From contig NW_002476438.1 in NCBI RefSeq assembly GCF_000189635.1, forward strand, positions 519,022 to 583,021: a DNA stretch of 64,000 nt, read 5' to 3'. The notes beneath the pieces are model-generated. The model was not told the DNA's origin. It saw only the letters and a list, made by a program, of their open reading frames with translations, and ran no database searches. The position numbers were made by a program, and so were the translations under genes. How positions within the stretch are numbered: position 1 is the first letter of the stretch; every line of letters begins with the position of its first letter. The DNA comes from Tetrahymena thermophila SB210. Lineage: Eukaryota; Ciliophora; Oligohymenophorea; Hymenostomatida; Tetrahymenidae. This document shows positions 2,635-64,000 of this stretch, piece by piece.

Positions 2635-5600
2635 ATGAGCAGTGAAAATAGAATTACTAGATAGAGTATTCAGAATTTTAAATAAAGCTTAAGAAATGAT
2701 AGGTCTCCTATGAATTAGATCTCACATTTAAGAGTGAAAGGAGCTGAGACAAGTTAAAAAATTACAGATTAATATATTTTTAATGTGCAAGAGAAAGAAA
2801 AGTTGCAAAATATTTTCAAAAGGATCCAAAGTATGAAAGATCAAAAGAGAATCCATGATTTAGTGATGAATTTACCAACACGAATGTTGAAGAGTTTTAA
2901 TTAAAACAAATTTGATTTATTAGACGATAGAAGTTATTTTTACAATGAAGACACATTTTTAGATTAAATAAATAATGGAGTCAACTACAAACGAAAGAGC
3001 TTAAAAATAAAAAATGTATCACTTTTTTTAGATTAATCAAAGGATGACGATGAAAACAAAGACATGGATAATAACTTAGAAGATGAGTATAATGTTGAGC
3101 CTATTTATGTCTAGACAAAATTTGATAAAATGTTAAAACTTTTATCTAAGATAATTGATAAAATTCCTATCATATAGCCTTCGAGTTCTTTGAAATTAAT
3201 ATGGGATTTAATTAATATGACTGTTATCATTTGCTGCTTGTTTTTTCTTCCTATTGTTATGGTATTTTAATTCTATTTCACTGATTTGATGAACTAAAAT
3301 ATGTTAATATCTATTCCTACTTTGCTCATTATAGATATTATTATCAACTTAAACACTGGATTTTTCTTCAAAGGCTAAGTGATAAAAAGCAGAATTAAAA
3401 ATTTAGAAAAATATTTTAAAAAACACATATTCATTGACGCTATTTGTATATTCCCTTTACTTTTTACACTTTATGGAGAATATTGTAATATCGACCCTGA
3501 TTCAGGAAATATAAACGCAAGCTATACGCCTATTCCTAGAATATTTTTACTCCCTTTTTTTTTTAAGATATTTACTCTCATTTCCAAACTCAAAAAAATT
3601 GAGGAGAGATTTAATATTCCAAGGTTAATTACAAATTTGATTTAGCTTGCTAAGCTGTTATTTACTATTATTCTAATTAATCATTTGTTTGCATGTCTGT
3701 GGGTTTATGTTGCTAAGTATGAAGATGATTAAAAATCATGGATGTAATACAAAAGTATTTCATAAAGTAGTTGGCAAGTCCAGTATTTGGTTGCTTTTTA
3801 CTTTACAACTGTTACAATGATTACTGTAGGATATGGAGATGTGCTACCAAAAACTAATTTAGAATATATCCTTTGTATCATAACTATGATGATTGCTTGT
3901 GGTGTATTCGGTTATTCTCTCAACGAAATAGGGTTAATATTTAGTAATTTTTTTTAAGTCGATAACGAAATAAAGAAAAAGTTGAAATTAATTTAAAGAT
4001 TTATGAGTAAAAAAAATATCGGTTCAAATCTTCAATATTAAGCAAGGGAGTATTTAGAATATTATTGGAGAGAGTCTGCTGAAGCAGATTAAGAATAAGA
4101 ATAAAATATTATATCGTAATTGAGCGAGTCTTTAAGATAAAAATTATTATTTGAAGCAAACAAGATAGTTTTAAGAGATTCCCCTATTTTCAAACATAAT
4201 TTTTCGAAAGGAGTAATTGAACAAACTGTTCCTCTAATTTAAGAAATTAAATACTCTCCAGAAAGTTTAATATGTTAGAAGGGAATTCAAGATGATCAAT
4301 CCATTTATTTCATTGAAAATGGGTCTGTAGAAATAATACTTACTACTAAAGCAAAGTAGCAGAAAGTTTTGCTCAGATTAGAAAAAGGAGAGTCTTTTGG
4401 CGCATATACTTTTTTTACTGGTTTACCAAGAATGAATAATATCAGATCTAAAGAGTTTACTACTATATTAAAAATAAAAAGATAGGATTTCTTAAAGCTT
4501 ATTTCTAACTAAGCCGAAGATTTAGAAACGTTTTGCAATATTAGAGATTCCATTACCTATCTTAACGATTTTAGCAAGATAGGACTAAGATGCAAGGGAT
4601 GTAACTCAAATTATCACATGGTAAATGAATGCTAATTTCTCCACTACAACCCCAAAAAGATGAGAATAATAAAGCAATACAATGATTAAAAAAATAATAA
4701 TCATTACTTTAGAGTGTCTTGCGAAAGAAGAGATGTTAATAAAAATCTCCATTACAAAAATTCTAGATCTATTGCTTAAACTGTTTACTTTCATATATAG
4801 AGGTATTTTTTTTATAAATTTTATAATAATTTCAAATTAAAAATTAATCAACCGAATAATCCTAAAATGTATTCAATTTTTCAACAATCAATTTTAAGGT
4901 ATTTATTTTTTAAATATGAATTTTAATATTCAATATTAAAAATAAGAAATTTTCATCAATGGATTTTATTGATCTGGTAAATTCCTTCTATTGTCCAAAC
5001 TAAAGGAAATATAATGCTTACCTTCAAAGAATGATTAAATTAAAAATAATATTTCTTTCTTTAAAGATTTGTAGCTTATTTTAGTTTTAGAGTCATTTGA
5101 AAATAATAAATTAATGATATTTAATTAATTTATTCATCAATTAAAAATAGATATATTGAAAATAATGGATCGCTTTTAGATTTATCTGATGAAGAAATAG
5201 AATACTCTGATGGACATTACAATTAATCAGATTATGATATTGATGTGGAAAACTATACATAAAAAGATAACAATGTATAAAATAAAAAACTTAAAATCCC
5301 AGGCTAAGAATTGAATAAACAAAAGAGTAACATAGAGCCTGAAGATTTCAATTCAGCATTAAAAGAGTTTTTTAGCTTAATAGGGCAGGAGCAATATGTT
5401 AATGCTCTAAATTTAAAGAAAAATAATACAAAAAATGAACCATAAATTAATGTATATAAAATGAATACCTTTAGTGAAAATGTGAGTGAGCATCCTTCTT
5501 CTATAAATGCAATTTAATCAATAAATAAAATTGTTATGCCAATAAGAGATAGGAGTTAGACATAGGAAAAAAATGAAAAATTTGAGAGACTTGAAAAATC

Positions 5601-6665
5601 AAGATCTTCGATTATCATCAATTAATACCAAAGGCAAACTTCTATCAACCTCAAAAATAACTAAAAGCCATAAAAAGATATATCAAGGTCTTTTAATGAC
5701 AAAAATTTTGATTAATTGTCAGATAATTAAAAGCATGAGAAAAAACCTGCTAAACCTCATAAAAGGAGTAGTTAAACTTAAAATCATAATGACTAAAAGC
5801 TTGATGAAATACTAAGTCATCTTAAACATTTATTTACTCAAAAAGATACTGAATAAATCCAGACTACATATTTTAGAGAAGATAAATTCTCTATCCATGA
5901 AAATATTGAAAATAGTGTGTTTCATAATTTTGATAGAATGAAAATTTTTGTCAAGTACAAACCACGTTTTAATTATACTACAGTGATCAGCAAGCTAAAT
6001 TAACTCTAAGAATAGCTGAGAAAACAAATACTATATCGTAGAAATTACAGAATGTCAAATAGGAAAAAAATTACTTTGTTTTCAAAGATTTAAGGAAATA
6101 AAATGATGGATAATTCTTATGAAGCAAGGTCTTGCTCAGTGAGGTAAGTTACTCAAAAGAATTCTTAATCTCCATATAATTAAGAAAATTCTGATAGCAA
6201 ATACTTAAATGCAATAAAACTTTCTGATTCCACTCTTTGTTTTGAAAAAGAAACAAATAAAAAGTAATTTATATCAAATTTCATTTATTTAATTTATTAC
6301 TTCAACAATTCTACCCTAAATAATTTTACAGATCTTCATGTAAGGTAAGTCATTTTAATGAGTCAAACTAAGTATAAAAAGGAGAATAGGCATTCTAAAT
6401 AGATATAATCAATAACTCTGGTAATGATTTAATACAACAAAATAGTTTAAAAGAAATTAAAAATAATAATAATGATTCAAGTTTACATTTAGATAAAAGA
6501 ACATCTGAATTATTTGATCATAGTTCATGTTAAAAAGCCTTAAAAAATGAAGAGATTGCTTTAGAAGAAGAATTAGAAAATCATGAACAAGCATTAGTAA
6601 CAATACCACGTGTGATGAAAAATTAAACTACAAATATAGCTCATAGGGCATTATTTGATAAATGA
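2635..6665 (+). CDS. CNG/EAG-like K+ channel with zinc knuckle, array copy 1
   Basis: Predicted plasma-membrane or ciliary K+ channel, 1204 aa in three exons (2635-4802, 5151-6263, 6332-6665). Introns 4803-5150 and 6264-6331 both restore frame. In order: a conserved N-terminal box (R-I-H-D-L-V-M-N-L-P), S1 around residue 187, S2 with the N-T-G and K-G-Q-V signature around 240, an S4 poor in basic residues near 300-325, S5 near 340, pore helix and TVGYGD filter at 397-402, and S6 to about 440. A C-linker follows, then a cNMP-binding-like domain around 530-625. A CX2CX4HX4C zinc knuckle lies at C653-C666. The tail is low-complexity with a conserved F-x-R-M box encoded near 5930-6005. The binding cassette has Ala where cNMP binders usually have Glu after F-G. 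It has one intron fewer than its neighbours. The ligand and gating mode are unknown. Confidence 0.88.
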
Positions 6666-7172
6666 ATGAAACATATTTATTAAATTTTTAATATATTTTG
6701 TGTTATGATAAAATAAATTGTCCTTCCTTTTTATTAGAATAAATCAAAGTTATAAAAATTTTAATTTAAACACATTATTAAGTATTCGATTTACTTTAAA
6801 TTTTTAATTTTCTTTCTTGTTTTTATTTGCTCAATTATATTTTTGTAATGAAAGATTCATTTTTCTCAAAATTTATTTATTTTTTTTAATTTTCTTAAGT
6901 TTTTAACAATATTTTATGCCTTGTTTAAATTAATAAAAAAGAAATAGAAAAATTATTTCACCTCTTTATGCTTTTTTCTATCTAAATTTTACAAATAATT
7001 ATCAAAAGCAATTAATTAATTAGGGTAAATTAAAAATTTGTTATTATTTAAATGAAAATTTAAAGAAAAAACTTTTTAATAAGTCTTAGTTATTAATTAA
7101 ACAATAAATTTGTTTATTTATTTACTCATTATCTAGATAGATAAATAGCTGATTAATTAGTTCTACTATTAA
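6666..7172. other. Intergenic spacer between channel copies 1 and 2
   Basis: About 0.5 kb of AT-rich DNA with no coding signal. Its left half is recognisably homologous to the DNA that follows the decayed tail fragment at 11421-12110, so it belongs to the duplicated unit described in the findings. Confidence 0.6.
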
Positions 7173-10100
7173 ATGTAAAATAGTTATTAAGGAGGAGAAA
7201 GAAGCTTTACAATTTTTTCTCCTAAATTACAGAATAACATGAGTATAAATAAATCTCATAACTTATTAAAAAATTCTATTAAAGAGAGAAAAGAGCATGA
7301 TTAGTACAGCGAAGAGTGGAGTCCGAATTCATAAATGAAGCTGTAGCATGTTCTTTAATATATAAAAAGACTAAGAGATTAGAAGCGTGCTTATAATTTA
7401 GTGATGAATTTACCTTCAAGAATGTTGAGAAGTTTTGATAAAAATAAATTTGATCTTTTAAACGATAAAGCTTTTCACTATGATGAAAAGACATACTTAT
7501 AGTTAATAAACTAAAATAATATTAATAATAATAATTTATAAAACAATATAAGCTAAACACAAGAGCCTAAGAATTAAGACAAAACTAGGCAAACTTAAAG
7601 CTTAAATTTATCTAATTCTAGATATAATAACTATTTTGAGTAGGATTCTGTTCTTTGTGACAAAAAAAAATAATAGACAAACAGTATCAGTAAGTAAATA
7701 AGCTAAATTTAAATTAAGAATTTGAAAGATAATTTAATAACAATTAAGTCATCTATTGTTAAAATACTTGAGTAAATTCCAGTAATACTGCCTTCAAGCC
7801 CTTTGAAGTTTATTTGGGATTTGATTTTCATGATTTTATTAATTATTTGCCTATTTTATTTACCAATTACTATTTCATTTGGATTCATATTCCCTGATTT
7901 GATTTCTTAATGCTATTTGATAACTATTCCTACTTTGATATTGTTAAACACATTCTTCTAAATTAATACTGGGTACTATAAAAAAGGATAAGTAATAATT
8001 AGTAGATTTAAAATTATTAAAAAATATGTAAAAAAAACACTCATCCAAGACCTTATTTGTGTTTTCCCACTTACATTCACACTTTATTATTAAACTTATA
8101 AATACTAACAGAAATAGTATTAAGATATTGATGAAAATAATGCTTCCTTTTAACTTCTCCTTTTGCCTTTTATTTTCAAAGTTTTCTCTATAAATGCAAC
8201 TTTAAAAAATTTTGAAGAAAGATTTAACTTACCTAAATTCTTGCTCAATATGATTTAATTGGCCAAGCTTTTATTAACAATAATTTTTATTAATCACTTA
8301 TTTGCTTGCCTCTGGCTTTACATAGCTCGTATAGAGAGAAAGTATGGCGTAGATTAAATTTGGTTGAACTATAACAATATTCAAAATGCTAATTGGTCTC
8401 AACAATATGTAGCTGGTTTCTATTTTATGACTGTAACCATGATAACTGTTGGCTATGGAGATTTCCTACCATTAAATTAACAAGAGTAAATTCTCAGTGT
8501 TATAACTATGATGCTAGCATGTGGTGTTTTTGGTTATACTTTAAATGAAGTAGGATCAATATTCAATAATTTTTTCTAAGTCGATAGAGAGATTAAAAGA
8601 AAATAAATTCTAATTTAGAAATTCATGAGTACAAAAAATATTAATAAAAGATTATAATATCAAATAAGAGAGTATTTAGAATATTGTTGGAGAGAGTAGG
8701 CAGAGACTGATTATGAAGAAAAGTAGATGATAATTGATTAATTAAGTGATTCACTTAGATAAAAACTACTCTTTGAAGCAAACAAAATTGTTCTGAGAGA
8801 TAATCCAATATTTAAGCAGAATTTTTCAAAAAATGTTATTGAAAAAACTGTGCCTTTGATTCTAGAAATGAAATATTCCCCTGAGAGTATAATTTGCTAA
8901 AAAGGAGTATTGGATGATTGCTCTATTTATTTTATAGAAAAAGGATCAATCGAAATTGTACTGAATCCTAAGGGAAACAATCAAGTATAGCTATTAAAGC
9001 TGAACAAAGGTGAATCGTTTGGATCTCATAGCTTTTTTACTGGTCTTCCAAGGATTAATAATATCAGATCGTGTGAATTTACAACTGTTTTAAAGATAAA
9101 AAGACAAGATTTCTTGTAATTGTTATCATGCTATCCTGAAGATTATGAGACTTTTTGTTTCATTCGCGATCAAATAAACTTTTTGAATGACTATTCAAAA
9201 ATAGGATAAGTTTGCAAGAGTTGTAGCTCAAGCTATCACATGATAAATGATTGCTAGTATCTTCATTACATATCAAATAAGGCTAGAATAATTAAAATGT
9301 ATAATGATGAGAATAATATCAATTAAACTGAAAGAACTCCTCATTAACGAAGAAATCCTAATGTTAATTATCACTACAAGAATTCATTAGTCATTTAACA
9401 TGATGTTGTTAAGCAAAATTTAATGTAATCTGAAGATATTTTTTAAATTGATCTTTTAACAACTATCAATAAAATAATTTAAAAATGAATTTTCTGTTTT
9501 TTTATTTTAAATACCTGATTAAATTATTTAAATTTAATTTAATAGCTTCTTGGAATAAAATGAAAGTTTACTAAATTTTAGTGATGAAGATACTGAATTT
9601 TCAGACGGATATTATAACTAAGAGAGTTTAAGAGGATAGTAAAATATTTAAAGATATCCCAATACAGATGGATCAAATTTCAAAAAAAACATCTTTCTTA
9701 TCTCTGAGCAATCTACACTTAAAGAATAAGAAAACGATAGCAATTTTAAGTATCCACTTACTAAAAAGAACACGATATCAAAGTTTGGATAAGATTATAA
9801 TCATACTGTTAGCAGAAGTTTAAATACAATAGATAAAAATTTAGATAGTGCTCTTGAAAATACAACATTTTAGAATGATATTTTATCATTAAATATCCCA
9901 GATATTTCCTAATAATAATAGAACATTTAATTTAATTCACCTTCTCTTGAATATGATGCTACAAGCAAAAAAAATGTAATAACACCTTCTTCGAGAAAAA
10001 ATTATGATATGTAATTCAATACAATCAATAGAATGAGAACAAATACAGCTGATAAAAGTGAGAATAATTACGATTAAAATATTTCATTTAACTAAGCTTA

Positions 10101-11197
10101 TTAGAACTTTTCTTGTGAAGCAAATAACAGGTAAGGTTTATAGACTAAGCTATAAAATTAATAAGCGAACGAAGATTCATTTGCTAAAAAATCCAAATCG
10201 ATTTCTCATTAATAGCAAAAGAGTTTAAAAAACCGCAGTTAAATAAGCTAAGATGAGTTTGAAAAGACCCTTTCATCAGAAAATAAGTAATTAATTTATA
10301 AAAATTAATTATTTTAAAAAAATGAAAATTAGAAATATGTAGGGATCAAATGGGAATGACAGGAAAAAAAATAGATTGCAAAAAAGCCCTACCGAATAAA
10401 TTAGTTTGATTTTAAAGCAAGTAAAAATACTTGTAAATCAAAACTAGCATAACTAAATTAATGAAAAGAAAAAAACATAATAAATGGAAGATGATATTGG
10501 ATAGTTTGATATCTTTTTAAATTTTGAAAAAATGAGATAGTTTATTAAATATAACCCTAGATATAATTTCTCTAGTGTAATTAGTAGATTCAATTAGATT
10601 CAGGATTTGAAAAATAAAAATATTAGAAGCAAAAAATCTTGTAGAATTAAAAAGCTAACTACACAAGTGTTGACAAAGACATAGTTTAACACTTAATTAG
10701 ATTCAAAAAAGCTTTAAAAAAACATATCAAGTAATAAGCAAATCACAAATAATTAATATGAACATACAGAATCAAAACAAGATTCTAAAAAAGTTCATAC
10801 CTATTCTGCTAAGTAAGATTCTGATCTAGATCCTACCTCTTAAGAAACATAAAGCTAAAAGTAATTAATTGACTTTATAAACATTTTAAATTAAAATAAA
10901 TAAAATTAAAATATTTAATTCAGCCCGAAGAATTTTTCGAAAGCAAATAACTTTAATAATGATATCAGCTTTTAAGTTGGAAACATATAATAGACAATAT
11001 CCTAAATTATTGAAGGAATAAATAAAAAATAGTAATTAGAAAATTTTAGCATTAATCCAAATAGGCGTGAATTAGATATAGATTCAAATAATAATAGCGA
11101 TATTATGAGTGAATCCAGTTTTTAAAGCAAATTTGGTATTAATAAATTTTAATAATAATAAGTAGGTGCTTTCGAACGACTAAAGAAAGATTATTGA
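7173..11197 (+). CDS. CNG/EAG-like K+ channel with zinc knuckle, array copy 2
   Basis: Predicted K+ channel, 1264 aa in four exons (7173-9424, 9546-10286, 10333-10860, 10924-11197); all introns are phase 2 or in register and the sum is in frame. The ATG at 7173 was chosen because the next one (7239) corresponds to ATA in the near-identical copy 3, where only the upstream ATG remains. It has S1-S6, a TVGYGD filter at residues 425-430, a cNMP-binding-like domain, a zinc knuckle C681-C694 (pattern CX2CX4HX4C) and the C-terminal box encoded near 10525-10600. The S4 region keeps only a few Lys. The residue after F-G in the binding cassette is Ser. Gln is encoded almost entirely by TAA/TAG. It is the closest paralogue of copy 3. 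Confidence 0.88.
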
Positions 11198-11420
11198 AAC
11201 AAAACTTTATTAAATTAAAAACAAAAATAAAGGAAAATTTCTTTTAATAAAATTTAACTATTTTCAAACTCGTATTTCTTTATAAATTATAGAAAATATT
11301 TGTTTTCTCACATTTTTTTTTGTAAATCATTAAATATTTTTCCCATAAAATTTTTTTCTGAAGCCATAGGACAAAAAATCCTGAATATCCATACTCTTTT
11401 AATAATTATCATTCATTTAA

Positions 11421-12110
11421 AAATTTAATGATATTTAATGCAATTAATTTATTCATCAATTAAAATAGATATATAAAAATCAGTATGTTTCATAATTTTG
11501 ATAGAATGAAAATTTTTATGAAATACAAACCACGTTTTAATTATATCACAGTGATCAACAAACTTAATTAACCCTAAGAATAGCTAAGAAAATAAATTCT
11601 ATTTAATAGAAATAATATAATGTCAAATAGGAAAAAATTTCTTTGTTTTCTAAGATTTAAGGAATTAAAATGATGGATATTTCTTATGAAGCAAGGTCTT
11701 AATCAGTTAGGTAAGTTATTCAATAGCATTCTTAATCTCCATAAAATTAAGAAAACTCTGATAGTAAATACTTAAGCGCAATAAAACTTTCTGATTTCAC
11801 TCTTTGTTTTGAAAAAGGAACAAATAAAAAGTAATTTATATCAAATTTATTTAATTTATTACTACAATAATTCTACCTTTTTAATACAAAAAATAGCTTA
11901 AAAGAAGGTAAAATTAATAAAACTGATTCAAGTTTGCATTTAGATAAAAGAACATTTGAATTATTTGATCACAGCTCATGTAAAAAAGCCATAAAAAATG
12001 AAGAGATTGTTTTACAAGAAGAATTAGAAAATTACGAACAAGCTTTAGTTACAATACCACGCGCGCTTGATGAAAAATTAAACCACAAATAATATAGCTT
12101 GATAAACGAA
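11421..12110 (+). pseudogene. Decayed tail fragment of channel copy 1
   Basis: This stretch matches the end of copy 1's first intron (from about 5107) joined directly to copy 1's C-terminal box and tail (from about 5905 to 6680). Roughly 0.75 kb of the second exon is missing. It has no channel core. A 1-nt deletion relative to copy 1 near 11632 throws the frame and creates a TGA at 11671-11673. A second frameshift lies near 12060, where copy 1 has its last codons. The DNA between it and copy 3 is homologous to the spacer between copies 1 and 2. It is best read as a passenger of the segmental duplication that made copy 3. Confidence 0.85.
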
Positions 12111-32286: not shown

Positions 32287-35200
32287 TCAAATATCTTCTC
32301 TAGGCATAGATTACATGTCTATGCTAACTTCTTACTGAGATTATAAGATATAAATGAGTTATTTTCTAATAAACCTGTCAGGTTTATATTTTTGGAATTC
32401 ACTGATAATGTATCCACAGCAAACAACTACTGTAACTATGACAGTCATAGCTATTATGACAGCTACTTAAGTAGTTGATTGATCTTAACATTAATTTGCA
32501 GGGTGATAAATACATGTTGGGTCGTAAATTAAAGAAACATTATTTAAAAATGAGCAAGTAATTGTGTTAGATATTTAATTATAGACTTATCCCACTGCTG
32601 GTATTTAAGCTCCATTTGAATAAGAAACGCAGGCATAGTCTTTGTAATTTTGAGAGTTTGATAGCTAATAAATAGAATTAAGTAATTATTACTATTATTA
32701 GTTTGTTGTATCTAAAACTCTTACTTTTGGTATGCTCAAGATGACACTCAAGTAAGGAAAAGACTAAGTGCATTGACTTTAGCAAAAGATATTTTAACTT
32801 AAGTAGCCAATTGAAACAGTTTAATAATTTACTTACGATGAAGATGCTTGCTATTCAGTTAAGATTATTTATTTGTTTTAATCAAAGTCTGGCATGTAAA
32901 AAATGTTTTTAATTTTTAAACCTTATTGAATATTTTGTGAAATAAATTAAGTATTTCTTGAAAGAAGCCTGATTCCTTAATCTGATTGAAGAGAAATCTT
33001 TTAAGAAAGTTTATGAGAAGTTTCAAGAATAGTGTTGAATACATCAATTGTATTTTAAACATAACTACTTATTTCACCAGGCTAGTTTTCAGATACATTT
33101 ATTGATTGCATACTGCTTTCAAGACCATTCTAAATATCTTCAATTTAGTTTTAATATTTTTTCTTTAAATTATTATCTTCAATCTTACTCAACAAATTGC
33201 TTTAAATAAGTTAATTTAAACTTTAAGCTTTTTCCTTAAGATTTTGTGAAATGGTCTTATCAATACACTCAATTTTTATAGAGGTTAAATTGTTGCCATC
33301 AGTAGTTGTGGTCATTTTCTTCACTTTTGAGTCAGGGCAGTTTGGCGTACATTTATCAGAATTATCTGATATCTCCAATACCTACTCACAAGTCTTTACG
33401 CAAATTCCTTCAGATGAAATCTTTCTGTTAATGCAATCTGAAGGTTTTATACATTAATTTTAGTTCTCAAAATCGAGTAAGTAATTTATATCACCACATT
33501 ATTTAACACATTATTTTTTTTCTAAAATATATTTATAGCCTTCTATACATGATAGGCAAGTAATTCCGTCTGAACAAGTTGCACAGCTTAGGTTATTATT
33601 ACAATTTTTGCAATCTAAGTTATCTCTATATTGATTAATCTAGCATTTTTATAAACATTATTTTTAAACTAATTCATAACCCTCTATGCAAGAAGTGCAT
33701 TCAGTGTTATTTTAGCAATTCTAACAGAATAAGGACTAATTACATTTCTCACATTAAAATTTTTATTAATCTCCATACTTTCCATCTGGACATTAAGCCA
33801 GGCACTGTTTGCCATCTTTATAGAATGAATTCAAGCAAGTTAAGCATTCTGAGTTATTTTAACAAGTTTGGCAATTAAGATCTCTTCTACAGATTAGACA
33901 CGTTTGAGTTGTATTATCAAGGTATTATCCATCAGGACAACTAGATAAAACACATTTATTTTATTACAAAGTGTAATTTGTTTTACATGAATCACAACTA
34001 GAGCTATCTTTGCAAGATTAACAATTCAAATTTTAGTTACATGTTTGGCAAATATTATTTTTATCTGAATATTTTCCTTAACCACAGGGATTAACACAAA
34101 CTTTGCCATCTTGAAAAAAACCATTCAGACAAGATTAGCAGCTTTAGTTATCACTGCAAGCTTTACAGTTGAGAGAGCTATTACAGGGTTTACATATTTT
34201 ATTATCAAGATATTTTCCACTTGGGCACTAATTAACACAAGAATCTCCATCTTTATAAAAACCATCCTGGCAAATATCGCAAGCAGTAGAGCTGATGCAT
34301 GTTTTGCAGTTAAGTTTAGAATCGCAAGGATCACATTTATTGCTATTATTTGTATTTTTGAAAAAACCATCCAAACAGCTTTCACAAGTGGTAGAAGTTA
34401 AACAAGTTTTACAGTTCAAGCCTAATCCGCAATTTTAGCAAATTTTTTTAGAATCTGCATATTTTCCTTCTCCACAGTCACTTACACATTGCTATCCACT
34501 AAGATAAAAACCATCATTACAAGTTTTACATATGGATTAATCACTACATGTTTTGCACTTAGAGTTGCAATTTAAGCATTTTTTACTTATACTATCCAAA
34601 TAATATCCATCTTAGCAACTAGAGCAGCTTTAATTATCTATGCAGGTTTTACAGTTAAAAGAAATACTGCATTGTTGGCATATCTTACTATTATCAGGAT
34701 ATTTTCCAGCTGGACATGTATCAACACAAGAATTACCATCTTTAAAATAACCATTTAAGCAAATATCACATGCTGTTGAGCTGCTACATGTTTTGCAATT
34801 AAGTTTAGAATCACAAGTATCGCATTTATTATTATCTAAATTTTTGAAAGAACCATCAAAGCAGCTTTCACAGCCTGTTGAAGTTTTACAAGTTTTGCAG
34901 TTCAACCCTTATCCACAATCTTAACAAATTTTATTAATATCTGCATATTTCCCATCTCCGCAGCTACTTACACATAATTATCCACTTAAATAAAAATTAT
35001 CAGCACATGTTTTACATGTTAATTAATCATTACATGTTTTACAGTTAAGATTAGAGCCACAAGCCAAGCACTTTTTACTATCGCTATCTAAATAGTAACC
35101 ATCTAAACAACTAGAACAACTTTTATCATCAGTACACGTTTTACAATTTAAGGCTGATACACAGACTTGGCATACGTTTTTTAAATCAGAGTATTTTCCT

Positions 35201-35886
35201 ACACCACAATCACTCACGCAAATACTACCATTCTTTTTATAATTATCAATGCAATCTAAACAAGATTTGTTGTCAATACAAGTTTTACAATTCAAATCTT
35301 TTGCACAATCTTAGCATTTAAATTATTCGCTATCTTTATATCTTCCTTATCCACAGTCATTTACACAACTAGTTCCATTTAAATAAAAACTATCTATACA
35401 TGTAATACATTAATCAGAAGCACTACAAGTTTTACAATTATTTGTACACAAAACACAAGTACTACCATTAAGATAAAATCCATCTTAGCATTTAGAACAA
35501 TTATTTTAATCAGAACAAATTTTACAATTTTGAGATGCTGGGCAAGCAGTACAAGAGGAACCGTTCAAATAGTAACCATCTAAGCACTTTTTACAAGAAG
35601 TATTATCAGTGCACTATTGACAATTTTACAAGCAAGAACTGCATTGCTTTGAACTTGCATCAAAATAATAATTATAATCACAACAAGCTACATCTGAGAG
35701 ATATCCTTTTGAAATATCACAAGTCAAACATTAATTTGCGTTATTGCAAGTTTTGCATTTCAAAGAAGGATTGCAAGGCTAACAAGAGGTTTATTCTGTA
35801 CTATAGTATTAACCATCAGGGCAATCTGTTGCTAAAATATACTATATTAAGCTAAAAAAAAGGAAAAAAGAATATTTTAATATCAT
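32287..35886 (-). CDS. Type I membrane protein with furin-like cysteine repeats
   Basis: A single exon of 1199 codons in the ciliate code, from ATG 35886 to TGA at 32289-32287. The first ~19 residues form a signal peptide: Met-Ile-Leu-Lys, a Phe/Leu-rich core, then Ile-Leu-Ala before the mature start. About 800 residues follow of repeated Cys-rich modules of the type L-N-C-K-T-C, C-x2-C-x-D-G-(Y/F), K-x-C, G-K-Y. This spacing fits growth-factor-receptor/furin-like repeats. A Cys-poor, Gln/Ser-rich stretch (about 33500-32530) precedes a Val/Ile-rich transmembrane segment (about 32460-32400). A ~35-residue cytoplasmic tail ends the protein. It is probably a cell-surface or ciliary protein; the ligand is unknown. 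Ciliates carry large families of such proteins. Part of the repeat array is itself duplicated (see findings). Confidence 0.85.
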
Positions 35887-37387
35887 TTAATAATGAGAGT
35901 TATTGTATTTCTTAATTTTTAATTAATACTATATTATTTCTATCAAAATTATATCAACCACTAAAAACTTTAATTAAAAATATTTGCATTCATCATTTTT
36001 ATTCACATTTGTATATATAATTTTTATTAGATCTTCTTCTTTAACTAATTTTAATTATCACATATTTTATAAAATTTAACTTTTTTTTGAATTATCAAAG
36101 TCAATTAAAAATACAGTAAATAACTCATCCTCTCTTTATTAATTAGAATAACAGTTAGTCTTTGAAAATAGTTTTCACTATAAATTTAATTTATTTGTAA
36201 TTTACCAACAAAATTATATATTTATTGTATAAAATTTTATTAATAAATATGTGGTAAATTGTATCAAAAAAGTCTAATTAGCTAAAACATAAAAAGAAAA
36301 TAATCAATATTTTTAATTATTTTATGTTCAAAGTTTTTAATATTTATTCAAATTAAAATTAAATTTCCTAAAAATCTTTGATAAAAATAACAATAGTTAA
36401 TTTATTAAAGTAAATAAAATTAGGCAAATAAATAAAATAATATTTTTGATATAATTATAACTGACAACTAAAAACTTTAATTATTGGCAATATTTTTGCA
36501 TAAAAAAGTTAAATTGTAAATTTTTTATAAATTAATCTATTAAAAATTTTTAATTTGCTAGTTTTCATAAAGTATCTTAGACGTATTTAAATTTTTTATG
36601 AATAAAATTCTCAATAAATTACCAATTTATAAAAAAATTTAATTATAATAATTTTGTTTTTTAATTCAATTGAAAATTCTGTCATATAATCTAATTAAAC
36701 TTTATAAAAATAATTTCTTTTGATTATAAATTATGTTAATTAAAAACTAAAAAAATGTAGACGATTTTATAAATTAATAAATAGACAAATTAAGTTTATA
36801 CATATATTTCTTGAGATTGAATATTTTTCAAAATATTCTCTTAGTTATTCACAATTGTAGCAGTTTGTGTTAAAGTTATGAATAAAGCTTTTTACCCATT
36901 TAAAAATATGTGAATGAAAACATATTTATGAATTCAAATTTTATAAATTTGTCTATATTTTAACTAATTATAAATGAATTAATAATATTTGTATTGTTAA
37001 TTTTTCTAGATATTTGGTAGCATAAATATTAATCCTACCTTTTTCTATTATATTGTTGAGTTATATATTTAAGCTACTAAATAACATATTGTTTTAAGCA
37101 TTTTTGGATGCTATCTTTGAGCATATAGAAATGATTTAATATTGTATAGAGTCTAGGAAAAACTACTTTAGAGTAAAGCGTCTACAGAATGATGAGTACT
37201 GCAATAACTGATAAATCTGTCTATACATACGTCTAATAATATCTTTTTTTTAATTTATTATTAAATTATAGTGGATATCAGAAACTAATAAAAAAATCTT
37301 TAAATAGAAGTAAAAGGACTAATAAACGTCAAAATATAAAAAATTTATTCAAAAAATTATAATTCACAAAAATATAGCTAATTTAAA
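35887..37387. other. Intergenic spacer, divergent promoters
   Basis: About 1.5 kb of AT-rich DNA between two divergently transcribed genes. The segment 37080-37240 is less AT-rich than its surroundings and ends in a T8 run, but matches no RNA family I recognise. Confidence 0.5.
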
Positions 37388-52406: not shown

Positions 52407-55400
52407 TCAAGAGTATTTTTCTTTGTAAGCTTAAATTAATTCATTACTGCGACCATCTTCTTTTCCAATATCTTTTAAAATTTATTCAACAAAAGCATTT
52501 GTTAACTCTTTGGAACTTTAAGCTGAATTTATATCAAGAAACTGACTTATACCTTTTGTTAGACTTGCAATCTCTTCATAAGTTTATTTTGCAGATTAAT
52601 TTAGATAAAATGTATTGACTGGAACATTTTTACTTTAAAGTTTATCACATTCTGGAACATAATAAGTTAAACCTTTTAAAGGAGTAGAATCCCAATAAAG
52701 TTATCCATGTTTTTCTCTATGTGACTAAGCTTCATTCTACAGATGTGCAGGCTAATCACCTAAAACAATAACTTAACCTATTGGATTTTCATCACTTTAT
52801 TTGTTAGCCCACCACAAACCTACTTCTACAGACTCTCCAGGATACGTACCACCAGAAGCTGTAATTTTTTATAAGTAAGATCTTAATTTATCAGGGTTAT
52901 TTTCCCAACTTGAAGCTTCTAATATCTCCTCAAATTTACTATTATAACTTCTAAAGCAGCATATCATTATTTAAAAACATTAAGGATCATAACCTTTTTA
53001 TTTTAAGATATCCCTTGCTTATTCAAAGGTTGTTTAGATAGTATTTTTAGTTTAAGTTATGAGATTACTCATTGAGCCTGTTACATCTAATGCAATAAGA
53101 GTTTTTGAATTTCTTTTTNNNNNNNNNNNNNNNNNNNNNNNNNNNNNNNNNNNNNNNNNNNNNNNNNNNNNNNNNNNNNNNNNNNNNNNNNNNNNNNNNN
53201 NNNNNNNNNNNNNNNNNNTATTTTTTCCAACTAAGTTTTTATTTATCTCATCTGTAATAGTATTATAAAACTCTTCTAAAGGAACTGCTTTAATATCTTT
53301 TTGTTCATTAAATGAAAACTTACTTTTTCCATACACTGAAGGGATCAAAGTATATTAATTCATATTATAATTTTATTGAATTAATTCTAATTGTTTTCCA
53401 CTTAAAGTTTCTAATGTTCCAGTTACACCTTTGATTATGAAAAACTTTTTAGGTAACTCTGAATAGCTAAAGCTACCGCAGTTAATTTTAAATACTTTTT
53501 ATTGCTTTAGGCTAAAATTTGAAATTCTTGATTTCTAATTTTCAAGATAGTAGGTGTATAAAGTTCTATATCCATATGATATATTATCTAAATACTAATC
53601 TTAGTTTTTATAGTTTATTTTGTCATTTTGAATTTTATAATTTTCAACAATTATGTTGTTGAAATTTTTAAAATCATGAATAACTATTTTTGTTTATTCT
53701 TATATTAATTCAGCCTATTATTCGAATTTTTCTATGCACTATTTATACTCCTCAGATTGAGAAATATTTTCAAAGCTAAAATTCAAATCAGATTTATCGC
53801 TCCAAATTTTATCTAGCAGGTTTTCAACTGTTACATCTTAGATTGGTGCTACAATTTCATAGTTGTTTCCAAAAAAATCTTTACTAAAGAAAACATCAAC
53901 TTCATCTATTAAAAGAACTTATTTCTTTGGTTTCTAAGTTTTGATGTTTTTTATTTCACCTGTTTAAATGTAGTTAGAAACTTATTCTCTGATATTTGCT
54001 CTTTCATTTAGTATTTCTTCACATACTCTGTTGAATGTATTATATAAAATATAATCCTTTATTTTTAATTTTTCGAATAAAGGTAAGAACTCTTCATAAT
54101 CTCTATTACTAAGTTAATTACTATAGCAAGCACACATCACTTAAAATCCACAAAGACTATAAAAGCAAGCTAGAGCAGCTAAAATAACTGACTTACCTTC
54201 TCCTGTCAAAACTTAGGCTAAGCTGTTTTTCTAGATTTTTGAATAATCTATGGAATAACCTATTGATAAAAGTCTAAAAATTGCAATTACTTATGCTGCA
54301 TGAGGTTTTAGTAAAAAGCTTTATTATTTTTCATAGGATTATTAAATGGATTCAAAATAATACTTTGAATTAATACAAGTCCAACAGCAGAATATCCCAG
54401 CTAAAAGATCAGAAACAATACCCAAACATTTTTATTGTATTTATCCAGTTTCCTAAAAGTATTTCACATTTATTTAACCAACTGAGGTTTAAATATCTCT
54501 CAGTAAATTAATAAAGTCTATTTTATCAAATTTGGTTAAGTATTTCTCTTAATAGCTATTGTACTTTATCAAAAATCTTTAGTAATAGTCATTTAACTAA
54601 GTTTTATTTAAATCATTTGTTTTACTTTTACCAGAGTAGCCTTTTATTTATTCAATGACCTCATCAATACCAAATCTTTATATCCTTAAATTTGTATTGC
54701 TAATCTAAAATCCTTTGAAAAAAGGGTTGGATTACATTATTTGATCACCATACTTAGTTTTACTTAATAAGATTTATAGCTTTTCTAAAGAACCATTAGA
54801 ATTTTTATAATTTAATAAGACTTTATTTATATTTTTATCACATTCCTTTTTAACTTATTGCATATAGATGTAAGTTTAAGATATCCTATTCATATTAGAT
54901 AAATACTCTGTAATTAAGTTAATGTCTTGATTTTCAACTCTTAAGGGCTCTTAAAACTATTCTTTAATTTATTTTATAAACTGTAATTCTACATATTTCT
55001 TGTCAATGTGATTTTTACCTTAATTCCATTAAGACAAATATTCATCAATATATTTTGAGTTCAAATATACATTGTTAATTCTTTTAACAACATCTTCTTC
55101 CAAAAAATCACATTAAAAGCATTATTTCATCTCTTAATCTATTAATGAATTAATTTAATTTAACTTCTTCATTAGCTATTCAATTAGTGTTTTGTTAAAA
55201 CAATTTAAATTACACTTTTCTTCTAAAGTTAATATTCCTTAAGCATTACTTAAACTATTTTAGAAAGACTCATAGTACTTTTCATATTCATTCTCAATTT
55301 TAAATGCAGTAATATCCTATTTGATTATTGATTCAATATATTACTTCAGTTTTTCTTGCTTAGAATTCAAAGCTATCAACAATTCACGATACTATTCTAG

Positions 55401-58400
55401 ATCAAAGCTTTAAAGGTAATATACAATACAAAATTGATCTATGCAATTTGAAAAATCTTGCTTAGATAATTAAATTTTGTTGACTTTTTATTTAATTTCA
55501 TTTATGACATCTGATTTCAATTTCTAAACAGAATTAAAGATATAGAAACTTTCAATTCCATTAAAAAATTTTTACTCACATTCTTGCAATTTGTCATTAT
55601 AAACTTTTATTAAAGAATTACTTAATTCACAATAATTAGAAAAAAAGTCTAAACAATCTTTTTCATAGCTAAAACTATTTTTCAATATTTATTAATATAA
55701 ACAATCAGCCATTTTAAATAAATCATTAAATATCTATTCTAAAACGCTATTTAACTTATCTATAGAAATGAATTAGAAATCTTAGGGAATACTTAAGCCA
55801 AACTTTATCAAATTTAAAAGGCTTTTCTCAAAGTTAATGTAATTTTTATTCTGACTATATTAATTAATTTGTTTGAATAAATTCTCGTTTTCTTTTGTTA
55901 TAAAATCTTCAAGATCGATGTTAAATTATTTATAAAAACTTGAATCTGCCAAACTTGCTTTAAGTTTCTTTAATCCTTCAATATTTTTTTGTCTAATGCA
56001 AGTATCTATTTCTTACTTTATTTTATCAGTATTTTTTATGGCATCTATTTATTACTTGAGACTATTTTCCATCTCTTAGGGGATATATTCAAAAAACTAC
56101 TGAACCTCACTAATAATTTTTTCTTGCTAATTAAGAGGCTTCTCTTTAGTTTTTCCCAGCATATCTTCCAGTTTTTTTTAATAAATGCCTTTAAGAGTCT
56201 TAGAAAAGGCTTAAATATTATCATCTTCTACCTATTCTAACTTGCTACATACAGATTTTAAATTAAATATCTCTCGATTTGTACATTCCAACTTTAAATT
56301 CTCAACTAGTAATTTCAATTCTTCTTAACAATTTCCTTATATTTAACTTAACTAACAGATTTATTCGTTCATTGTGAATGATTATTAAAGGATTACAAAA
56401 ATATTTTGCATAAAATTAATTTAATCATAAAATTCTTTGAAGTTATAGATTTTAAAAGCTTATTTTATTTTGTTTAGTCCCTAATTTGCAATTTATTAAA
56501 TGCTACTTTTGACTTAATCTTTTAAACATTTAAAGTTTTCTATGTCTAAGTAATCCTTAAAATTTAATTCAAAATCATTGAATTTATTATATAGAATAAT
56601 AATTTAGTTGGTATTATCTATCAACTCTTTGGTTTAGCTCTTTATCGATGAGCATGTTAAATTTTATCTAAGTTGATCAATAGTTTGTTAAGCTTTTTAA
56701 ATTATTTATCTCATTTTATTTTCTAACTATAACTTTAAATCATCAAAAATTGACTAATGATCTTTATTTTCTTTGTTTTGGCTAGCAGATTTTAAAGTTT
56801 CAAGGATTTTAAGAAGATTACCATTATCTAATTATTTATCTATTTCACCCTTTAAATTTTATGTATTCGTTTTATTCTTTTTGTAGCAATCAGAGAGTAA
56901 GTTACCGAAACTAAATTAGCTTTTAGAGGGATAACATAATTCATCAAACATGTTTAGCTATTGTAAAACGAAGATCCACTTTTGCTGAATGTATTCACTT
57001 TCATCAAAGGTATCCTTTATTTTTATCCAAAGTATCTTAAGGGAAGTCTATAGCTATCCAAGCGAAAAGGAACTTTTACTTTATTCCAAGATACTCTTTA
57101 AGCAATCAAAATATTGAATCTTTTACATTTCTTCAAACTTTTAATAAATGTTTTTTGTGCATTATTGAATTTATTGTTTTTCTTACTCTGTCAAAGAAAT
57201 ATTTTCTAATAGAATTTTTAGTTAATTAAGAGAGTCTTAAAGAGATTTTTCTTTTTCCAAATAGCTGCTTAAAATTTTTTTTTTTAAATTTTCTAAGAGT
57301 TTTTGAGTTTCTTACTTAAATATTTTATTTTAATTGCACTTTAATAAGAAATGATAACAGTTTTCGAGTTTCCAATAAGTAAAATCTTATGAATCCATAA
57401 TTATCTAAATCTCATCAAAATAAATCTTAAATTTTTCTCTAACCTTATCATCATATTCCTTTACAATATTTTATAGTTCCTTATCTTCATTTTAAAAACT
57501 ATTTAATATCTTCATCTTTTAGTTGTAGTTTGCTATTTTGCTTAAATCTTCAGTTTATACAGTTTATTCTAATGTGATATCTATTTAATCAACTTTTCCT
57601 AAAATATTATTTGCAAATTTTCTTAATTAATTCAATATCTTTTAAGAAGATTACTCAAATTCTTAATCAAGCTCTTTAATCCATTAACATTTTTAAATTA
57701 ATTAAAATGTCTCCATTAAATTTTCTAATTCCATTTCGAAATCGGTGTTATTGTTGAAAGATAATATTTATTTTGTCATTTAAATTACTTGCTAAGATGT
57801 TTTTGTTACTCTATCATTTAAGAGGTTTTTCAAATTATTAAATTTTTACTCTAAATTATGAAATATCTTAGATAAAAGTTATAGTTAAAATACTTTTGAT
57901 TTCAGATCTGAAAAATCATCCGATTCTTAATTGATAACGGCAATGACTTTTTACTCAATAATATTGTATTCGTTCTCTACTTATTCTTCTAATGATTTCC
58001 AAAAATTATTCATTTTTTCTTTAAATTCTTTAACATTTAATTTAGATTTCTTAAAATCCTAAAGAATATTTTTTGTTTTTTATTGAGCTATAATTATTTC
58101 ATTCTTATTTTCTTCATTTGTTCCAAGTAGTTTTATTTTTTCTAAGATTATCAGCCTTTAACTTTTCATGATACTTATGATTGAATCAAAAGTCTATTAA
58201 ATTTGAATGTTTGCATTTTGTACAGTTAAAAAGGAGCAGCTCTCAATATAGTTGATGATTAGTTGCATCTCATCAAAAAAATCAAGAAAACAGTCTTACT
58301 GCAAGTAACTTTTAGCCTTTTCCACTTATTTTTATATGTATCCCTTTACATAAGTTATGAATTATTAAATATGTTTCTCTTCTTTAATAGTATCAGATAA

Positions 58401-60062
58401 AGATTTTAACTTCAAGTAATATTCATTTACATTAATTTATTAACATGAATTAATTTCTAGTTTCGCATTTTCGAGTATCGCTGTAATGGCACTTTACAAA
58501 GCAGAATCTAATTTTATCACTAAATTCTCGGCTTGAGGTAATAATTATTATAAAATACTTACTTTAGATAATTATTCTTTATTAATTAAAAAACTTTTAA
58601 TTTATTATTCATCTATCTTCTTGATATTTATTATCTATGAAATAAAATCTTCAACTTTTTAAATTTCACTATTTATGTACTCATCAATTAAAGTAACATT
58701 TTGCTCATATTAATTATTTATAGAAGATAAATCTGAAATATTTTATTTTAACAAATTCAACAAACCTAGTTTTTTAAAAACTAGCAAATAATTTCTTTTT
58801 TTCAAAGCGTTTTCTATTCTACCTTAATCTTATTTTAACTATTCTGATATGGATATTTCTGCTTCAGATGTAAAAAAACAAGTAAAAAAATCTTTTGGCA
58901 TTTAAATTGCTTCCATTTCTGTAATGTACCTCTTTATAAATTAAGATCCTTTCATGCTAAAATCGAAGAAAGCTATGTCTTAATAAATTTTTGTTTATTT
59001 TATCATAGTTTTAAGAACATAAACAAACTCTTTATCTTTTTTTTCTTCTGTATTCAAATGTTCTTTTATATTTTTAAGTTTTTTGTGAAATTATTTCTTA
59101 TCCTCATCTTTTTCGAACTTAGAAAAAACAAATAAAAAATTCTTAATAATTTTATGAGAATCTTTAGAAGGTTTCAACATTTTTTTAATTACATTTGCAA
59201 TCTCTTTAATTCCTTATCCTCTATCAGAAATTTACTTTTCACTAATTATAACTACAGGTTTTATGCTCTAGCAAACAGAAATACATTTTGTAATTCCAGT
59301 TAAATTAGCTATCTCTGATTCTTTTCCTTCAGAATCTTTAAAACCAGGAGTATCACATATTGTAACTTCCTCATTACCTTCATCTTCATCTTCATCATCA
59401 CTACTGCTATCACTTTGCTCTTAGTCCTAAACCTTAATTTGTATAGGTATTACAAACTTTGTTTCTGATTTTGCGTTAGAATTTGAAATAACTCGGTCTA
59501 AAGATTAGTAAAGAGGTTTAGAAATTTCCCAGTGATATAGCCCATTTTAGCCAATAACTTTTTATATTTTTGATCCAGCAACATAATGAATGAATGTACT
59601 CTTTCCTGCACCTGAATTCCCTAAAACCATCACAATATCTTTATCCTTGATATCTTTGCTAGAATCATCAGATTAACTTATCTAATCAGATATCTTTTGA
59701 AAATCTAAAGTATTTATTATTTTAAACAGGTCATATAATCTTATTTCTGCCTTATTACCATTGCCATTTTTAAACTCTTAAAGGCTTGATTATAATAATG
59801 GTTATATTTATTTAATAATAGCTTCACTTTCTAGCATCATTTACTCGTTTAAGAGATTAAAAAGGATCAAGCATTACTCTTATGGAACATTTTGATTCAC
59901 ATATTTTAATAGTAATAATATATTTTCATCAAAGCAAAAGTTTGCGAGCCTTTCTTACTATTCAAAGTCAATATTTTCGATATTTTATATTTCTTACTAA
60001 ATTGAATCTTGCGATTAAATATCTTCCGAATTACTTGAAATTCCACTAAAATCCAAATCCAT
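52407..60062 (-). CDS. Giant GTPase-like / SecA-like motor / vWA fusion protein
   Basis: An open minus-strand frame of 2551 codons (gap counted as 100 nt) from ATG 60062 to TGA 52409-52407; I saw no intron. N-terminal P-loop G domain: G-N-S-G-A-G-K-S-T at 148-156 and D-T-P-G near 237. The usual N-K-x-D is not clear (F-S-K-F-E instead). A long Lys/Glu/Gln/Ile-rich, probably coiled-coil region follows, about residues 350-1900. Next comes a SecA-like DEAD motor: K-P-H-A-A-Q, then T-G-E-G-K-S (Walker A, ~1951), L-I-D-E-V-D (Walker B, ~2047) and V-T-G-T (~2210). The C-terminus is a vWA domain whose metal site reads D-V-T-G-S-M-S, directly right of the gap. No signal or membrane segment. SecA motors move protein chains in bacteria and plastids; this protein's substrate and location are unknown. 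The neighbouring copy shows motor motifs V-VI that the gap hides. Confidence 0.85.
53119..53218. other. Assembly gap (100 N) inside the SecA-like gene
   Basis: Exactly 100 N, the usual placeholder for a gap of unknown size. It falls between the V-T-G-T region of the motor and the vWA domain. Colinear comparison with the neighbouring copy (63120-63729) suggests about 0.6 kb is missing. Confidence 0.98.
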
Positions 60063-62407: not shown

Positions 62408-64000
62408 TCAAGAAAACTTGGCTTTGTATGCTGCAATTAATTCGTTGCTACGACCATCTTGCTTTCCAATATCTTTTAAAAGTGATTCGACAAACAGATT
62501 TGTTAATTTTTTGGAGCTTTAGGCTGAATTTATATCTAGATATTCACTAATTCCGCTAGTTAATTTTGCAATATCTTCGTATGTACTTTTTGCTCCTGGA
62601 TGGAGATAAAATGTATTCGCAGGAATCTTTTTACTGCTAAGTTTTTAACACTCTGGAACATAATAAGTTAATCCTTTTAGTGGAGTACTATCCCAATAAG
62701 TTTATCCAAATGAATTTCTATGAGCTTAAGCTTCATTCTATAGATGTGCAGGTTAATCCCCTAAAACTATTACTTGGCTTATTGGGTCTTCATCATTTTA
62801 TTTGTTAGCCCACCATAATCCTACTTCTACAGATTCTCCTGGTCCTGTACCGCCAGAGGCTGTTATTGTTTATAGGAAAGACCTTAATTTGTCTGGATTA
62901 TTTTCCCAAGTTGAAGTTTAGAATATCTATTACCATCTGCTAGTATAACTTCTAAAACAGCTTATCATGATTAAAAAACATTATGGATCATATCCTTTTT
63001 CCTTTAAGATCTCCCTAGTTTATTCAAAAGTTGTCTAAATAGTATTTTTAGTTTAAGTGATGAGACTACCCATTGATCCAGTAATATCCATAGCAATTAG
63101 AGTTTTAAAAGTTTTTTCTTTTGGTCCTTAATTCAATTACAATAAGTATTTTTTAACTTCTTATAGATTACGATCTTTTAAAAAGTTTAAGAAGTTTTCT
63201 GATTATTTATGACTAGTAATAGAGGTCTTTTGATTATATTCTATATTACTTTTAAAGTCATTTTCGAAATTAACCTGACGATTTCTATCAAGGACTTCAT
63301 ATATTTCATCAAGTTTCTCAGTTTTCTTTTAGTCTTCTTCTGTTTTAAGGAAAGCCTAAAGAGTGTCTTGTTGAAGAACCATGCTGTAAGACCCTTCTTC
63401 ACCTTATCTTGCTGTCCTTCCTTTTGTCTAGGTCTCTTCAGACTTATCCTCAGAAAAGAAAGTCTGAATAACATGAATTCCATAATTTTAAAATATAATT
63501 GTATCATTAACTTAGAAATCTATGCCCCTACCAAATATTTTAGTAAGTAAAGTAATTGCACCAGAGTATGTTGCGTCTTTTATAATTTTCTTTCTTTCTT
63601 CAATTGAGTTTTCTTCTGTCATAATTTAAGTCTAGGAATTTTATTTTAATGTTTTGAACTGTTAACTATTGTAGTAGTCAAGCAAGATGTCTTTGGTATT
63701 AAAGAAAACTAGTACTGCTCTTTTTTAATCAGTTTTTCCAACTATATTCCTATTTATTTCATTTGTTATAGTATTGTAATACTCTTATTACAAAACTACT
63801 TTCACATCTTTTTGGGGGTTAAATTAAAACTTACTCTTTCCATATACTGATGGTATGAAAGTGTATTATTTCATATTATATGTGTTTTATATTAATTCGA
63901 GCTGGCTTTAACTTAAAGTTTCTAAAGTTCCAGTGACACCATTAATTATAAAAAAACTTTTTAGGTAGCTCTGAATAGCTAAAACTTCCACTGTTAATTT
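62408..64000 (-). CDS. Second SecA-like / vWA fusion gene (3' part only)
   Basis: C-terminal part of a close tandem paralogue of the gene at 52407-60062, in the same orientation and running off the right edge; TGA at 62410-62408. The visible part covers motor domain 2 and the vWA domain. SecA-type motif V (G-R-G-I-D-F, near 63525) and motif VI (K-G-R-T-A-R-Q-G-E-E-G-S, near 63390-63430) are clear. The vWA metal site reads D-I-T-G-S-M-G near 63070-63095, followed by T-A-S-G-G-T and V-I-V-L-G-D-Q loops. The frame is intact throughout. Its upstream part, with any G domain, lies outside the window. It supplies the sequence equivalent to the gap in the first copy. Confidence 0.87.

Follow-up and report, generated by a model that had tools for sequence, protein, structure and literature searches.

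SecA is the engine of protein export in bacteria and plastids, and the ciliate Tetrahymena thermophila has no plastid. In midasin and integrins, the MIDAS domain grips its partner by means of a metal ion together with an acidic residue. Long eukaryotic genes with a secA domain are already on record: the main text of PMC3639933 presents such genes, with Tetrahymena among the matches, as exchanged with Wolbachia and Amoebophilus, and the available text of PMC5062602 lists SecA among the eukaryotic-like domains of phage WO. The window analyzed here, a stretch of 64,000 nucleotides from contig NW_002476438.1 of T. thermophila SB210, carries on its minus strand a giant open reading frame (ORF; 52407..60062) that starts with ATG and spans 2551 codons, read as 2551 amino acids under the ciliate code (table 6). 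Sequence comparisons place its product in a giant protein family of approximately 2,700-3,460 residues, in which a G domain, a long helical arm, a SecA-type two-lobed ATPase and a vWA domain with a MIDAS follow one another.

The presence of SecA-type engines in a plastid-less ciliate, some of them in giants shared with bacteria, raises the question of their use in a eukaryote. By analogy with described families, the protein may pull polypeptides in an ATP-driven manner, MIDAS gripping a substrate or partner and GTP controlling assembly; this is the reading we favour, and we assign it a probability of about 45%.

Domain architecture of the giant family

The six motifs claimed in the preliminary description were each present once in the ORF, and in the order claimed (GNSGAGKST at residue 148, DTPG at 237, TGEGKS at 1953, DEVD at 2053, VTGT at 2213 and DVTGSM at 2326). 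When the protein sequence was shuffled 2000 times, loosened patterns for all six never occurred in order. The SecA-type nucleotide-binding domain 1 (53220..54350, minus strand, as are all features of the giant gene and of its tandem copy; residues 1905-2281, up to an assembly gap) contained the Walker A motif TGEGKS (54189..54206), the Walker B motif DEVD (53895..53906) and the TGT motif GVTGTL (53412..53429). Two RecA-like lobes with the SecA motifs in order were present in the family, motor 2 being read from paralogues and from a second, gap-free tandem copy (62408..63958), which holds the end of domain 1, motor 2 and the vWA domain and is cut by the contig end. In this copy the motor 2 motifs (63401..63532) were GRGIDF (63515-63532) and GRTARQG (63401-63421), and the P-loop_SecA family scored above cut-off (28.8 vs 27); a frame shift falls within the last ~100 bases before the contig end.

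A profile built on seven ciliate motors returned 26 matches in the PDB, of which the top 24 were SecA or SecA2 (7.1e-16 to 1.3e-5) and the remaining two the mitochondrial DEAD-box helicase MSS116 (0.003). The significant SecA match over the motor region on which the motor claim had been staked beforehand was thereby found. Compared by hhalign with five bacterial rows labelled SecA or SecA2 in the present analysis, the ciliate motor profile gave one colinear alignment (9.8e-22) that starts ahead of Walker A and extends beyond GRxxRQG, its confidence being low across the preprotein cross-linking position. The window copy being gapped, the fold was assessed on the bacterial homologue L034, for which AlphaFold2 modelled 1002 residues from before the motor through the vWA domain (8 rows; predicted local distance difference test, pLDDT, 75.1; predicted template modelling score, pTM, 0.59). 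Among the best 50 of 1242 Foldseek matches of this model, ranks 1-36 were all SecA (2.9e-17 to 4.2e-10), followed by DinG (1.9e-7), UvrB and other helicases, which puts SecA far above other superfamily 2 enzymes; isolated SecA DEAD motors reached a Foldseek TMt of 0.68-0.70. In the model, motor 2 is followed by a long helix of 43 residues (685-727), a shorter helix and the vWA domain. TGEGKS and DEVD were intact in all five ciliate and bacterial vWA-type proteins compared. The scores of NCBIfam full-length SecA models were far under their cut-offs, which is to be expected when the remaining SecA domains do not accompany the motor.

The vWA domain (52410..53117) was delimited with the help of paralogues and bacterial homologues. 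It contains the MIDAS motif DVTGSM (53070..53087), and the likely later MIDAS positions are SGGT (52845-52856) and VLGDQPAH (52743-52766), so that a DxSxS-like motif, a later Thr (SGGT) and a later Asp (GD) were all found in the window copy. Among the bacterial copies, DATGSM was present in four of four with GD kept and the Thr not evident, while variants occurred in the ciliate paralogues L014 (AGGGD and ADAP) and L016 (DGTSSM). Integrin beta chains matched the vWA part of the L034 model from rank 47 of the same best 50 Foldseek matches (4.3e-6). Together, motif, homologues and fold match agree with the earlier proposal of a vWA domain, here of MIDAS type.

The N-terminal G domain, with approximate limits at residues 125-385 (58908..59690), possessed the TRAFAC GTPase features G1 (P-loop GNSGAGKST, 59595..59621) and G3 (DTPGF, 59340..59354) and was homologous to the G domain of L034. 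An AlphaFold2 model of window residues 60-480 (5 rows, pLDDT 77.6, pTM 0.74) matched MnmE, GIMAP2, dynamin-like proteins, septins and Toc33 in Foldseek. Among the best 60 of 245 profile matches were septin-9 (9.5e-6) and also ABC transporters. The P-loop G domain originally claimed is thus upheld by motifs, model, and fold and profile matches. Between it and the motor lies the long helical arm (residues ~400-1790; 54693..58865), delimited on sequence and on its faster evolution.

The window copy is interrupted by an assembly gap of 100 N (53119..53218) that separates the SecA motor from the vWA domain, hides motor 2 and turns residues 2282-2315 into X. At this point the gap-free paralogue L011 has 210 residues, compared with 39 in the window ORF, 34 of them X; by this alignment, ~205 residues including motor 2 are absent from the window copy, and the true protein is estimated at ~2,720 amino acids. 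The frame stays open across exactly 100 N by luck. The preliminary description had read the SecA-then-vWA order across the scaffold gap without remarking on it; the order itself was right, as the gap-free paralogues show. L011 (2712 amino acids), L012, L014 and L016, all on other contigs, are continuous from the P-loop over the arm and the two motor lobes to the vWA domain, with no N or stop (L014 and L016 extend beyond the 5' end of the stretch examined), and this bears out the union of G domain, SecA-type motor and MIDAS-type vWA domain in one protein. The chance that the fusion is an artefact of assembly or reading, the gap having brought together the motor of one gene and the vWA domain of another, is negligible: the gap does sit exactly between the two domains, but motor and vWA are joined in the four gap-free paralogues, in the C-terminal ORF of L013, in the second copy and likewise in the bacterial proteins L034, L035, L036 and L039. 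For the family, an assembly chimera was ruled out by the gap-free paralogues and the second copy. In the whole genome, 16 SecA_DEAD matches were found at 15 places, 14 of them above cut-off, and the family genes form tandem arrays. The third tandem copy of contig C127, L013 (C127:3300-13200), falls into two overlapping frames and may be a pseudogene, contain an unrecognized intron or reflect an assembly error.

The window ORF possessed 209 TAA/TAG codons (8.2% of 2551) and is open under table 6. Opposite the TAA/TAG codons in the last 900 residues of L014, glutamine was found at 38 of 179 residues (21%) in the four bacterial homologues, compared with 6 of 36 (17%) opposite CAA/CAG and a background of 4.7%, an enrichment that supports the reading of TAA/TAG as glutamine.

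Several observations weigh against a SecA-type puller with this domain content. All Pfam scores on the window copy were below cut-off (SecA_DEAD 23.4 bits, cut-off 24.6; VWA_2 19.4, cut-off 27; MMR_HSR1 18.1, cut-off 21.9), the SecA_DEAD score in the window frame including neighbours being 25.2. In the vWA-type proteins scanned, no Pfam match was found for SecA_PP_bind (PF01043) or for the helical scaffold/wing domain (the relative L028 passes PF01043, 24.5 vs 23.5), and in the L034 model the stretch at the preprotein cross-linking position is mostly helical. Motor 2 motifs are imperfect in L036 (SRGRDF and GVSGT) and L039 (ARGRDF and GRGARAG). A C-terminal profile of motor 2 and vWA gave 31 PDB matches, with no vWA chain among them, SecA at 2.1e-8 and MSS116 at 2.5e-4. 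Concerning the G domain, the top profile match was an unrelated P-loop protein (3.9e-7), no Foldseek match reached E <= 0.001, and G4 is SKFE in the window copy, not NKxD (NKYD in L034). The arm showed weak homology to the bacterial arm, at best 6.5e-7 (L016), and the comparison of the window-copy arm gave 0.51, meaning no similarity. Finally, Helicase_C passed its cut-off in both the second copy and L011 and ranked ahead of P-loop_SecA in each, by 34.5 to 28.8 bits in the former.

This last result, together with MSS116 among the weak profile matches, would be expected if the motor were a superfamily 2 nucleic-acid helicase or translocase that merely resembles SecA. Such an origin is nevertheless quite improbable, as SecA leads by ~12 orders of magnitude when the whole-motor profile is used, by ~4 with that of the C-terminal part and by ~10 in the fold comparison, and as the insertion between DEVD and TGT is about equally long in the family (149 profile positions) and in SecA (152 residues in 1m6n). 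A generic helicase was rejected on the whole-motor profile and the L034 fold matches. The SecA-type motor of the preliminary description is thus confirmed by profile, profile-profile comparison and predicted fold. Since Pfam found no scaffold/wing domain in the vWA-type proteins scanned, the motor is SecA-type and the whole protein is not a canonical SecA.

Bacterial homologues and probable transfer between domains of life

The preliminary description had regarded the fusion as ciliate-specific, a claim refuted by full-length homologues with the same domain order on four bacterial contigs. A pattern-based scan of a genome-contig collection described as covering 84,980 species produced 173 pattern matches, and relatives were identified at 24 loci; a ciliate-specific family was ruled out on this basis. 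Six loci (L034-L039) were close motor relatives, with 31-40% identity in the best segment. Among them, L034 (a Legionellales metagenome-assembled genome, MAG), L035 and L039 (Gammaproteobacteria MAGs) and L036 (a Chlamydiae MAG) possessed the full architecture: read with the standard genetic code, each has an ORF of 3,010-3,464 codons in which a P-loop is followed by the SecA motor and then by a vWA domain with DATGSM. These four were the loci in which tblastn, applied to 14 of the 24, found a vWA domain; the L037 contig ends before any vWA position, and none was found in L038. L034 shared 41% identity with the ciliate L014 over motor and vWA (7.2e-188) and 40% over the G domain. Its contig is bacterial, with dnaE upstream and an ankyrin-PARP gene and an HI0933-like gene downstream. 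L035 is neighboured by GGDEF-EAL and aconitase genes and L039 by a Na+/H+ antiporter gene. The ankyrin-repeat and PARP protein of L034 (14787-17192, minus strand) is the second large ORF downstream of the giant gene.

The bacterial occurrence is patchy: at E <= 1e-18, members were detected in 1 of 36 genomes of L034's order and in 4 of 232 of L036's phylum. Of these four, L036 alone had a vWA match, L037 being cut and L064 and L065 having none. The chlamydial relative L064 (G138:C1:857500-872500; ORF 1927-11895, 3,323 codons) possessed a G domain and SecA motor with no vWA match, and its residues 264-371 weakly matched SidM_N (19.9 bits, cut-off 27). A scan of viral contigs gave 82 pattern matches and no relatives, and a tblastn search of phages gave no match.

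In a motor tree of 35 rows (39 with plasmid rows added), the family combining G domain and motor, 18 ciliate and bacterial rows, formed one side of a branch with 100/100 support. Left out of the tree were L054 (partial), the SecA of L041 (L040 being a near twin), a further ORF from each of L040 and L041 that had passed the motif filter, and L062 and L063 (the genes of L064 and L065); L015, L032 and L066 are absent because the motif filter missed them, and L042, L047-L051 and L057 were never put to that filter. Four of the five rows labelled SecA or SecA2 lay apart from the giants and the fifth, L070, on their side; the giant family did not group with housekeeping SecA. Ciliate vWA proteins formed one clade (99/95), and their union with the four bacterial vWA proteins received 92/95 in the 35-row and 89/82 in the 39-row tree, under the strict threshold, with L034 nearest the ciliate proteins in the former (84/66). 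Four clade tests were run on groups named after the tree had been viewed. The ten vWA rows already formed one side of a branch; a single clade of the eight bacterial members was rejected by the approximately unbiased test (p-AU 0.014), and single clades of the ciliate proteins with G domain and motor (p-AU 0.068) and of the four bacterial vWA proteins (p-AU 0.356) were not. From the tree and these tests, transfer of the vWA-type family between domains of life, in one direction or the other, appears likely.

A sister branch offers a more direct and probably recent case. SecA-like genes of 2,966, 5,225 and 1,589 amino acids were found on plasmids of two endosymbionts, Bandiella woodruffii and Megaera polyxenophila, both from cultures of Euplotes woodruffi; they group with the L028-L031 branch, apart from the window family. 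In the Tetrahymena genome, L028 (C391:18000-27900) was 84% identical to the 5,225-amino-acid Megaera gene (CP113870.1, 41399-57076) over 3,300 amino acids, a length set by the stretch examined, which L028 fills, and L029 (C129:234500-244400) was 77% identical to the same gene over 2,428 columns and 59% over 702. TAA/TAG codons made up 1.9% of L028 and 2.4% of L029, whereas counts in five resident paralogue ORFs gave 6.7-9.5%. In L028, 30 of these codons, out of at least 60, faced CAA/CAG of the plasmid gene, as did 19 out of at least 47 in L029; the others mostly stood opposite codons one base away, as a decaying copy would also give. Divergence from the plasmid gene was measured for both (L028: synonymous, dS, 0.30, non-synonymous, dN, 0.08, dN/dS ratio, omega, 0.27; L029: dS 0.41, dN 0.12, omega 0.29). 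Locus GC was 0.30 in L028 and 0.28 in L029, compared with 0.22-0.25 in the window and most paralogue loci; alone it is a weak sign of transfer, because L023 also has 0.275. The simplest reading of these comparisons is that L028 and L029 probably stem from recent bacterium-to-ciliate transfer and are adapting to the ciliate code. The share of TAA/TAG read as glutamine may then serve as a rough record of a gene's residence time in the ciliate nucleus, and hence provide a datable system.

These probable transfers, and the patchy bacterial occurrence, would also suit a window gene that does nothing for the host, being either a relic of horizontal transfer or a selfish gene derived from a symbiont. 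This is very improbable, as the TAA/TAG share of the window gene (8.2%) resembles that of the resident paralogues and its omega relative to L011 is 0.28 over 2498 codons; these two values together indicate that the gene is old in the ciliate and under selection.

Among the plasmid genes, the SecA-like giant at NZ_CP110822.1 1-8901 occupies 8.9 kb of a 22.9-kb Bandiella woodruffii plasmid. Short plasmid SecA-like genes at NZ_CP049043.1 12031-14037 and NZ_CP140822.1 4697-5413 adjoin PqqD-family genes, the former also an HlyD-type gene, and from this context both loci are possibly compact SecA-driven peptide export systems.

Selection along the protein and proposed mode of action

Selection was estimated by simple pairwise Nei-Gojobori counts with our own script, in 150-codon segments along the gene. 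Between the window gene and L011, omega ranged from 0.11 to 0.47 by segment, with 0.15-0.19 in motor, 0.24-0.27 in G-domain and 0.26-0.47 in arm segments. Between L011 and L012 it was 0.18 in the motor, 0.38 in the vWA domain and 0.65 in the arm, where it rose to 0.77 with no segment above 1. Overall, motors and switch are conserved, and the arm diversifies or is under lax constraint.

Conserved engines flanking a faster-evolving arm are also what is expected of the strongest rival, in which the SecA-like part would be a nucleotide-driven conformational switch within a large sensor and the arm a surface for defence or self-recognition; STAND proteins and very large interferon-inducible GTPases provide models. 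The tandem arrays in the genome point the same way, as do weak matches of the G-domain region to novel STAND NTPase families and immunity-related GTPase structures. We nevertheless consider this sensor unlikely: both SecA lobes are strongly constrained with TGEGKS and DEVD intact, no arm segment of 150 codons exceeds an omega of 1, and PADLOC returned nothing for the window protein and one match at 0.0057 for L034.

The data establish the parts of the protein and their order, catalytic motifs kept in most members, constraint and bacterial homologues; for the polypeptide puller, we infer a host-symbiont role and, from known families, polypeptide movement, MIDAS grip and switch function. The SecA-type motor would cycle between open and closed lobes, thereby moving a segment of protein, while the vWA domain would grip a partner as MIDAS does in midasin and integrins, by a metal ion plus an acidic residue. 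The GTPase domain would set assembly or location, and the faster-evolving arm could provide partner recognition or spacing. Intracellular life is common in groups such as Legionellales and Chlamydiae. Because members also occur, in a patchy fashion, in Legionellales, other Gammaproteobacteria and Chlamydiae, the machine may act in dealings between protists and intracellular bacteria, in the control, import or disposal of foreign proteins. A broader proposal, that these are mobile giant pullers combining GTPase, SecA motor and MIDAS, passed whole between ciliates and intracellular bacteria and acting in conflict or cooperation, is possible but should be taken as tentative. If the puller is real, a SecA-type motor would have been put to work by a plastid-less eukaryote; Walker A, MIDAS and G1 are testable handles of the architecture.

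Elsewhere in the window, six consecutive ORFs on the plus strand (2635-29518) contain ion-channel and cyclic-nucleotide-binding domains, and a protein of 1239 amino acids (32287-36006, minus strand) matches Giardia VSP and furin-like cysteine-rich repeats.

Comparison with described systems

The secA-domain proteins of insects, Daphnia, Tetrahymena and Polysphondylium, treated with their Wolbachia and Amoebophilus relatives in the available text of PMC3639933 and PMC5062602, are likewise long and form a eukaryotic clade, and exchange between eukaryotes and intracellular bacteria was deduced there. The terms vWA, Willebrand and GTPase are absent from the main text of PMC3639933, and neither Legionellales nor Chlamydiae are named in the available text of the two papers. 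The four-domain machine, or its occurrence in Legionellales or Chlamydiae, was not found in our searches of the open-licence PubMed Central literature. Long eukaryotic SecA-domain genes are thus known, while the machine of G domain, arm, SecA motor and vWA domain and its bacterial spread appear, going by these searches, to be new.

The Megaera and Bandiella plasmid giants resemble the window family in their SecA-type motor, giant size and link to ciliates, and differ in that no G domain or vWA domain was found in them (blastp, E 0.01). GIMAP-, Toc- and septin-type GTPases share G1, DTPG and fold similarity with the window G domain, although the alignment covers part of the domain, the Foldseek matches stay outside E <= 0.001 and no sub-family is assigned. 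Bacterial SecA and SecA2 share the two-lobed motor with TGEGKS/T, DEVD, TGT, GRGxD and, in most members, GRxxRQG; in contrast, no scaffold/wing was found in the giant family, which lacks the cysteine-rich C-tail, stands apart in the tree and has its motor fused to a G domain, an arm and a vWA domain. Finally, midasin (Rea1/MDN1) has a comparable plan: this ATPase, too, is giant, has a long linker and carries at its C-terminus a MIDAS domain that grips substrate, but it is built on an AAA+ ring, unlike the SecA-type engine of the present family.

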